64,000 bases of DNA from Arthrobacter rhombi. Lineage in GTDB: Bacteria > Actinomycetota > Actinomycetes > Actinomycetales > Micrococcaceae. Location of the stretch: positions 1 to 64,000 of the forward strand of contig NZ_FUHW01000019.1 in the NCBI RefSeq assembly GCF_900163545.1, given 5' to 3'. Position 1 is the stretch's first letter. Every line of letters begins with the position of its first letter. The position numbers and the translations under genes are program-made. Shown here piece by piece: positions 14,541 to 47,236 of the stretch. The notes under the pieces are model-generated. The model was not told the DNA's origin, ran no database searches, and worked only from the letters and a program-made list of their open reading frames with translations.

Positions 14541-14569
14541 TTGGGTTGCCTCGGCAATCGCGTTAGGCT
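14541..14569 (+). promoter_or_regulatory. Promoter of riboswitch unit A
   Basis: TTGGGT (-35, 14541-14546), 17-base spacer, TAGGCT (-10, 14564-14569). A transcript starting about 7 bases downstream would begin almost exactly at the first paired base of the structured RNA (14578). The same -10 hexamer at the same distance precedes copy B. Confidence 0.65.
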
Positions 14570-14577
14570 GGAAAAAA

Positions 14578-14654
14578 GCTTCATGAGACGCGGGCAACAG
14601 CTCCGACTACCCGCGCACCAACCCCAGGTTCGTGGGTGGTTCGGATGAGGAAGC
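14578..14654 (+). promoter_or_regulatory. SAM-clan riboswitch candidate (SAM-I/IV-like), copy A
   Basis: Closing stem P1 GCTTC (14578-14582) with GAAGC (14650-14654); P2 CGCGGG (14589-14594) with CCCGCG (14610-14615); a loop with TCCGA (14602-14606) that can pair with TCGGA (14641-14645) as a pseudoknot; P3 from ACC-A-ACCC (14617-14624) with GGGTGGT (14634-14640). The junction CATGAGA after P1, the ACCAACCCC strand and the TCGGATGA strand before the 3' side of P1 are the conserved pieces of SAM-I/SAM-IV aptamers, without a P4 helix, as in the SAM-I/IV variant class. Structure and the repeat at 25985 are seen; the class is from memory. It sits in the leader of the small gene at 14701. Confidence 0.7.
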
Positions 14655-14700
14655 GGCCCGCACGACAACGTGTTGGGTAAGAACGCACGAGAGGAAATCC

Positions 14701-25948: not shown

Positions 25949-25977
25949 TTCAAAGTGTCGGGTCCCCCGACTAGGCT
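25949..25977 (+). promoter_or_regulatory. Promoter of riboswitch unit B
   Basis: TTCAAA (-35, 25949-25954), 17-base spacer, TAGGCT (-10, 25972-25977). The predicted start falls at the first paired base of the structured RNA (25985), as in unit A, and the -10 is identical. Confidence 0.6.
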
Positions 25978-25984
25978 GATATCA

Positions 25985-26124
25985 GCTTCACGAGATATGG
26001 CCCCGTCGGCCGCTCCCCCGGGGAACGGCAGACGGACAGCTCCGACTGGCCATGCACCAACCCCACTGGGACCGGCAGGAATGCCGAGAACGGATTGTTC
26101 TGCGGGTGGTTCGGATGACGAAGC
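25985..26124 (+). promoter_or_regulatory. SAM-clan riboswitch candidate (SAM-I/IV-like), copy B
   Basis: Same fold as copy A. P1 GCTTC (25985-25989) with GAAGC (26120-26124); P2 ATGGCC (25997-26002) with GGCCAT (26048-26053), carrying an extra hairpin CCGTC/GACGG (26003-26035); pseudoknot TCCGA (26041-26045) with TCGGA (26111-26115); P3 ACCAACCC (26056-26063) with GGGTGGT (26104-26110), with a long insertion in its loop. Blocks identical to copy A: ACAGCTCCGACT, GCACCAACCCCA, GGGTGGTTCGGATGA and GAAGCGGCCC. The helices differ in sequence but keep pairing, which is covariation support. A GCCCC/GGGGC hairpin follows before the gene. Confidence 0.7.
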
Positions 26125-26170
26125 GGCCCCCGGTAGCCGCCAGGGGCAAGGACGATCCGAAAGGCAGACC

Positions 26171-26572
26171 ATGCCGGCCTTGCAGCACCTCCACTCCCCC
26201 AATGCCCCCGCAATCCACCGTGGAGTCCCCCGCTTCAGCGGTGACTGGGTCGACGCCGCCGTCGTCCTGGGGCACGGGACGGTCCGTATCGATACCTTCG
26301 ATCGCGGATACATCCTGATGACCGATGATTTCCAGAGCCTCCGCCACGCCCTCGGGCCGACGCGGACGCTTCGCACCACGGGTGGTTCGGCTTCCGGTCG
26401 AGCCGGCGTGCAGTTCAACGCACAGTTCAACATGCTGCTGGTCCCCGGCGGCCACGCCCGTGCGGGCCGCTCCTTCTTCCCGCTGCATCCGGCACCGTCG
26501 ACCACCTGGCACCAGACCGGAGACCGCGCGCCGGGCGATCAGGGTAGGACAGGAGGCCGCGTTAGGGGGTGA
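26171..26572 (+). CDS. Small protein of unknown function behind riboswitch B
   Basis: 133 aa from an ATG preceded by GAAAGGCAG. The open frame extends upstream through the structured RNA, so a longer start must be wrong. The 3' end overlaps the convergent alcohol dehydrogenase by 11 bases, and the last 40 residues (His/Gly/Arg-rich) look poorly conserved, so the functional part may be the first 90. Residues 36-61 align without gaps with the unit A protein (shared G, T, V, Q, L, A, L). No signal peptide, no membrane helix, no recognised family. Confidence 0.55.
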   Translation: MPALQHLHSPNAPAIHRGVPRFSGDWVDAAVVLGHGTVRIDTFDRGYILMTDDFQSLRHALGPTRTLRTTGGSASGRAGVQFNAQFNMLLVPGGHARAGRSFFPLHPAPSTTWHQTGDRAPGDQGRTGGRVRG

Positions 26573-45628: not shown

Positions 45629-45637
45629 GTATTGATT

Positions 45638-45780
45638 ACCTCTCCCAATGCCTGCGAGGTGAGCTGTCGGATTCGAGTGGGAGTCACTCGGTGCCTGGCC
45701 CGATAACCGGACCGTGACACTTAACCCCAAGGATCCTGATGGACCCGAAATGTGGTTCCCCCGCTACTGCCAAGCGATTT
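45638..45780 (-). promoter_or_regulatory. c-di-AMP riboswitch (ydaO/yuaA type), leader of NlpC/P60 gene
   Basis: On the minus strand the RNA opens AATCGCTTGG, then GCGGGGGAACCA, TTGGGGTTAAG, CGAATCCGACAGCTC and CTCGCAGGCATTGGGAG, in the order of the Bacillus ydaO consensus. The final GAGAGG is the ribosome binding site of the downstream gene. In the known class c-di-AMP binding lowers expression of wall and ion genes; here it controls a wall hydrolase. Confidence 0.95.
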
Positions 45781-45864
45781 TTGCGAACGGACCTCGGGCA
45801 GTGGCAGTATTCGGCAATCTGCTCGAGTGCGCCTGACCCCTATGCGGTCTGGCACGTCGACTAC

Positions 45865-46948: not shown

Positions 46949-46956
46949 ACGAGAGA

Positions 46957-47115
46957 CCTCTCATGGCGCCTGCGGAGTTAGCTGTCGGGTTCGGACCGGT
47001 CAGATCCGGTCGCAGGCCAAGCTGCGACTTCACCCCAAGACGGCCGCGTGCCAAGGAAGCAAGGCGGCTGGCCGTCGGTGTTTGGGTTCTCCACCCCTGC
47101 CTGTCATTTGGGCGA
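46957..47115 (-). promoter_or_regulatory. c-di-AMP riboswitch (ydaO/yuaA type), leader of M23 gene
   Basis: On the minus strand: AAATGACAGGCAGGGGTGGAG, then AACCCAAAC, TTGGGGTGAAG, GGTCCGAACCCGACAGC, TAACTCCGCAGGCGCC and ATGAGAGG. Same conserved blocks as the riboswitch at 45638-45780. Placed immediately before the M23 start; GAGAGG serves as its ribosome binding site. Confidence 0.92.
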
Positions 47116-47236
47116 ACGGACCCGCTCCGCAGGCAGGGCTCAGCGATCGGAACGAGTGGGCGAGGACGAATCCCCATCCGTTATCCACGCTACCCGAATC
47201 GGATACGAAGTAACAGTTCCGTTATATCTATATCGA

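Follow-up and report, generated by a model that had tools for sequence, protein, structure and literature searches.

What do two copies of one leader RNA, each placed directly before a small open reading frame (ORF), sense, and how might they control the genes behind them? The window analysed here, a stretch of 64,000 nucleotides from Arthrobacter rhombi, carries two such units on its plus strand, and an earlier note, made before any database search, had taken the second of them (unit B) for a functional, aptamer-like cis-regulatory RNA. That reading holds, with an Rfam SAM-IV match for copy A, a sub-threshold match for copy B and strong covariation. Unit B is, in our assessment, quite probably a SAM-IV-family leader before a conserved 133-codon gene, in which predicted SAM binding likely shuts off translation via the pseudoknot PK-2. 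Unit A is a divergent sister of unit B and of the same kind.

Architecture and copy number of the two leaders

The variant SAM-IV leader RNA of unit B (copy B; Rfam RF00634, sub-threshold) extends from P1 to PK-2 over positions 25984 to 26159. Its helices follow one another in SAM-IV order: P1 (25985-25989 with 26120-26124, GCUUC/GAAGC), P2a (25996-26002 with 26048-26054, showing two-sided change in all seven pairs), P2b (26038-26039 with 26046-26047), P3 with the predicted SAM-contacting bulge (26056-26058/26108-26110 and 26061-26063/26104-26106, retaining the C-A-A-C and U-G letters) and the P5 hairpin (26126-26147). PK-1 joins the P2 loop to the strand after P3 (26041-26045, UCCGA, with 26111-26115, UCGGA), and PK-2 joins the P3 loop to the tail after P5 through ten pairs (26091-26100 with 26150-26159). 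The last PK-2 base, 26159, directly adjoins a Shine-Dalgarno-like (SD-like) AAAGG at 26160-26164, recognised by its sequence 6 nt 5' of the ATG that opens small-protein gene B (P0001; 26171-26572; 133 codons). Two insertions set copy B apart, an extra hairpin in P2 and an enlarged P3 loop, and both are present as previously described: the former occupies the 5' side of P2 (26003-26035), and the latter contains a hairpin of its own, P3b (26073-26086). The P3b hairpin fold is retained with differing sequences in two congeners (G001 and G002) and at locus L028, and the P2 5' side exceeds 18 nt in 49 of the 153 parsed elements of the variant set defined below.

Unit A has a corresponding layout, with copy A of the leader at 14577-14695 (Rfam aptamer match at 14579-14689, 69.1 bits), PK-2 pairing 14628-14631 with 14681-14684, an SD-like AGAGGA at 14690-14695, again assigned by sequence, and small-protein gene A (P0002; 14701-14985; GTG start, 94 codons). 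An alternative register is available in copy A, in which the P3 loop pairs with CACGAG and the pairing extends into the SD-like stretch. The -10-like hexamer TAGGCT had been placed at the same distance in both units, which is true to one base: counted from its first letter, it precedes the aptamer by 13 bases in copy A (14564-14569) and by 12 bases in copy B (25972-25977).

Four sequence blocks are exactly identical between the copies, as had been claimed: ACAGCTCCGACT (12 bases; from 14597 in copy A and 26036 in copy B), GCACCAACCCCA (12 bases; 14615 and 26054), GGGTGGTTCGGATGA (15 bases; 14634 and 26104) and GAAGCGGCCC (10 bases; 14650 and 26120). For comparison, only 16 of 2000 random pairs of equally long window stretches had any 12-mer in common. 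The further claim that P2 and P3 differ in sequence yet still pair stands for P2, which pairs in both copies with other letters, and falls for P3, whose core pairs ACC-AA-CCC/GGG-U-GGU are common to both; besides P2, the hairpin that differs is P5.

Two similar copies 11.4 kb apart, together with a protein relative encoded on a conjugative Rhodococcus plasmid, might also suggest a dispersed repeat or mobile element, and the earlier note had named dispersed gene-less copies as the outcome that would overturn a regulatory role. The copy count that it proposed was carried out with a covariance model, R1, constructed from six leaders rather than two (copies A and B and four leaders of protein-B relatives; pseudoknots not included). 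At E <= 10 the model matched only copies A and B in the genome that carries them. The ORF immediately behind each copy is under purifying selection, and dispersed gene-less copies were not seen. The score of copy B was 138.7 bits, under a model partly built from copy B itself. Two congeners, moreover, also have both units, at spacings of about 10.0 and 11.5 kb, and neither of two tested members matches phage records. A repeat or mobile element is thereby refuted as far as tested, and we regard its probability as negligible. A phage origin was likewise rejected, with the same two members lacking a phage-record match and the core pattern lacking an exact match in viral contigs. As background, a passage of PMC8190616 reports 16 SAM-IV elements among the non-coding RNAs of Mycolicibacterium prophages.

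Relatives of the leader-plus-small-protein unit recur across several actinobacterial genera. R1 matches at E <= 0.01 occur in 288 of 395 family genomes and in 27 of 32 genera, a count that covers more than the variant clade because lower-scoring R1 matches include canonical SAM-IV. A core-pattern scan of named genomes yielded at least 119 stretches, and Arthrobacter, Rothia, Kocuria, Glutamicibacter, Paeniglutamicibacter, Mycobacterium, Rhodococcus and others are among the matches listed. A contig titled Vibrio cholerae strain 35D (L212) also carries the actinobacterial core pattern and possibly belongs to a contaminated assembly. The element set assembled for the analyses below comprises 198 elements, 178 of them distinct; 158 have the variant core GGTnnnTCGGATGA, and the remaining 20 divide into 12 canonical elements and 8 near-variants missing the expression. 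At seven loci (L054, L062, L063, L064, L065, L081 and L087), two variant elements stand back to back, about 160-250 bases apart, and each precedes a different small ORF, one encoding a member of the superfamily described below and the other a short DYARxxxARxEFxxFLL protein.

Covariation, pseudoknots and the 5' end of the RNA

The compensatory helix changes first noticed between the two copies proved strong when checked by covariation. Across 106 aligned sequences, 96.5% of cells were paired versus 85.3% after shuffling, and two-sided change was found in 24 of 33 pairs against a shuffled mean of 16.9, in an alignment that was fitted to the R1 helices and leans towards them. Sliding of the pairing partners abolished the signal. 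PK-1, which is absent from R1, showed two-sided change in four of its five pairs, with 99.8% of cells paired.

PK-2 was tested separately in the 148 variants that could be parsed (10 of 158 could not). At a fixed tail position, where the P3 loop meets the first tail bases, at least four pairs formed in 126 of 148 elements, whereas shuffled loops gave an expectation of 30.9; a four-pair PK-2 is absent in the other 22. The commonest length is five pairs, and ten are reached in four elements, copy B among them. The signal came from this position-specific test and not from a general duplex-energy test, which was weak: native loops averaged -6.6 kcal/mol, shuffled loops -5.4 and mismatched partners -5.8, and 9 of 148 elements were clearly better than their own shuffles.

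The position of the promoter-like hexamer is similarly fixed. Among the 158 distinct variant elements, 145 have TAnnnT at offset -13, -12 or -11 relative to the aptamer, while any other single offset between -45 and +4 accounts for at most 11 elements. Because this position is so constant, the transcript probably starts at the aptamer.

Riboswitch class, pocket and predicted ligand

The gathering cut-off of the Rfam SAM-IV model (RF00634) is 38 bits; copy A lies above it with 69.1 bits, and copy B lies below it with 27.4 bits (E 0.011 when 751 bases were searched). Relatives of protein B were found in 4 of 38 relatives searched, in each case immediately behind a SAM-IV match; one of these matches lies above the cut-off (64.8 bits) and three lie below (37.9, 37.4 and 31.8 bits). 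Across 20 relative loci, the model gave 22 matches, and 17 of them exceed the Rfam cut-off. The riboswitch class is thus one already known, and the variant form is distinct, with copy B falling below the Rfam cut-off. No account of the variant clade and its protein partner was found among the papers searched.

Likeness to SAM-IV extends from the order of P1, P2a/P2b, P3, P5, PK-1 and PK-2, an architecture set out in part of PMC6890682, to the predicted pocket letters. The motif with U3, C4, G7 and A8, placed by homology to the SAM-contacting positions described in the same source, occurs in every one of the 158 variants. All 158 also keep the P3 letters C-A-A-C and U-G, a figure that holds partly by construction because these letters belong to the selecting pattern and expression. 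Where the Rfam consensus has P3 pairs GGC/GCC and PK-1 strands CCCGG/CCGGG, the variant has ACC/GGU and UCCGA/UCGGA; P1 is nearly invariant in the variant, unlike in SAM-IV at large, and copy B adds its P2 and P3 hairpins, a ten-pair PK-2 and a score below the cut-off.

The SAM-I/SAM-IV variant riboswitches, which we take to be Rfam family RF01725, belong to the same SAM-aptamer superfamily. Copy B falls outside their definition, having both P2a/P2b and PK-1, whereas those riboswitches are described without the P2 internal loop in a section of PMC2864571 and without PK-1 in a section of PMC6890682.

Could the variant clade have changed its ligand, keeping a SAM-IV scaffold while sensing SAH, MTA, a polyamine or a similar compound? 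In all 158 variants, again partly by construction, the P3 pair beside the SAM-contacting C-G pair is turned round from G-C to C-G, while 12 of the 20 elements outside the core have the canonical form; this inversion could alter specificity. P1 is also nearly invariant: 149 of 158 variants have GCTTC/GAAGC, and so do 63 of the 69 chosen by a pattern that did not include P1. A precedent exists in the spermidine-sensing SAM-I variants, which, as presented in part of PMC10853860, likewise form a SAM-aptamer clade with changes near the pocket and a gene set of their own. Those variants, however, altered letters of J1/2 and of the P3 internal loop and precede polyamine genes (same partial source), whereas the clade studied here retains U3, C4, G7 and A8 together with C-A-A-C/U-G. 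Tested clade members, moreover, also stand before genes for a Cys/Met PLP enzyme, for a cobalamin-independent methionine synthase-type protein and for a rhodanese, methionine and sulfur genes that fit SAM as the ligand, as would be expected. We therefore consider a changed ligand unlikely and continue with SAM as the predicted ligand of copies A and B.

Canonical SAM-IV elements provide a point of comparison within the same genome, where three lie above the cut-off, before a Cys/Met PLP enzyme, a flavin-reductase-like gene and an OsmC-like gene. The first of these resembles the arrangements recorded in M. avium, with SAM-IV before O-acetylhomoserine sulfhydrylase (in a portion of PMC3774663), and in S. 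lividans, with SAM-IV before cysteine desulfurase (in a portion of PMC8079986). Behind those elements lie methionine or sulfur genes; the small proteins encoded behind copies A and B have no family assignment. Elsewhere in the window, two c-di-AMP (ydaO/yuaA) riboswitches lie 1.1 kb apart on the minus strand (45635-45810 and 46953-47124), both above the Rfam cut-off.

The small proteins and their proposed control

Both ORFs behave as genes under purifying selection, with dN/dS of 0.29-0.32 for ORF B and 0.09-0.19 for ORF A (three pairwise comparisons each), and these low values are mostly lost or reversed in other frames. Neither protein matched a family in Pfam or NCBIfam; their database relatives that bear a name are called hypothetical or uncharacterized proteins. 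Where the source of a relative is named, it is Arthrobacter or Micrococcaceae. For the first set, 87 proteins of up to 200 aa were guessed behind the leaders; 71 of these fell into one single-linkage BLAST cluster, and 32 picked from this cluster align colinearly. Profile comparison related the A type to the B type at just 5.2% when they were compared directly, and related both to a third type (type III) far more strongly, at 97.4% for B (E 1.5e-11) and 94.5% for A (E 8.1e-8). By these comparisons, proteins A and B appear to be members of one small-protein superfamily, linked through the third type. Their predicted structures share the same core order of strands, one helix and strands, at good mean pLDDT for A (85.8) and moderate mean pLDDT for B (70.1), and a comparison of these structures with the PDB gave no convincing match.

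This superfamily is tied to the variant leader. By a profile of the 32 proteins, which is therefore partly trained on the set, a superfamily ORF stands behind 93 of 158 variant elements, 3 of 8 near-variants and none of 12 canonical elements, and is absent at E < 1e-3 behind the remaining 65 variants; reversed proteins, used as a control for the profile, gave no hits. Searching 120 family genomes returned 59 protein matches in 45 genomes, with a profile of riboswitch-linked proteins that may miss distant, riboswitch-free members. An R1 match lies a short way upstream at 44 of the 47 superfamily loci tested, and the other 12 protein matches sit behind elements already found, one of them as the second gene of the same leader, which brings the matches behind a leader to 56 of 59. 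At L050 (G006:C13:30594 and 30978), two superfamily matches stand in tandem behind one leader. No SAM-IV element was found upstream of the three superfamily genes at L248, L272 and L274; two of these genes have a -10-like hexamer and a short leader in its place, as if the riboswitch had been lost or never gained.

Other genes share the clade. Behind 17 of 158 variants stands another ORF family, of shorter proteins with the motif DYARxxxARxEFxxFLL, and among loci counted as Mycobacteriales by title, 8 of 26 variant elements precede the superfamily. The short DYAR-type ORFs of L063, L064 and L065 have dN/dS of 0.90-1.05 over their whole length (three pairs), with the C-terminal motif kept. At the mycobacterial loci L156, L172, L135, L174 and L128, the clade precedes still other genes; the L156 leader lies before an ADP-ribosylglycohydrolase, and further mycobacterial genes of the clade have no assigned family.

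How would the leader act on its gene? In the proposed mechanism, SAM binding would close the aptamer and the PK-2 pseudoknot against the ribosome-binding site; the ligand-stabilised PK-2 would keep the ribosome off and turn translation off, and small protein B would be made when SAM is scarce. The start codon lies at a median of 24 nt past the first PK-2 tail base (131 elements, namely those with a chosen ORF start no more than 40 nt from the element end), and given this proximity to the aptamer, we infer that SAM shuts off translation by way of PK-2. As to the direction of switching, the proposal follows what SAM riboswitches generally do in front of biosynthetic genes.

Control could alternatively operate by transcription termination, or SAM could turn expression on. 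An ON response would agree with the unconstrained minimum-energy fold of copy B, which is not the aptamer: the PK-2 strands pair in nested fashion there, and part of the SD and start codon is masked. Since this free fold departs from the aptamer, the direction of the switch is not readable from folding, and single-sequence folding was set aside as an uninformative guide. Against termination, a TTTT run occurs in just 2 of 148 tails and the spacing is short, which makes an intrinsic terminator between aptamer and start unlikely. In five mycobacterial tails (L124, L135, L174), PK-2 is followed at once by an arm that is complementary to the SD-like stretch of the same tail, for example GCCTCC/GGAGGC; the complementarity suggests a hairpin hiding the SD and fits translational control. 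Termination or an ON response consequently appears improbable, and translational shut-off upon SAM binding remains our preferred reading for unit B.

Taken further, units A and B may represent an undescribed actinobacterial SAM-starvation system, a possibility to which we give somewhat less than even weight: a SAM-IV clade with an inverted pocket-side pair, placed mainly before one fast-diverging superfamily of small beta-rich proteins, which would be made at low SAM and act on the methyl or sulfur economy. Copy B illustrates that members with inserted hairpins escape the Rfam SAM-IV model. In the variant clade, nature has also provided a test of how well the SAM pocket can accommodate a flipped pair next to it. 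Above all, a riboswitch indicates the signal to which its gene responds, and a superfamily of hypothetical proteins that lies behind this SAM-IV clade in 56 of the 59 matches examined may thereby be assigned, in a testable manner, to the response to SAM supply.
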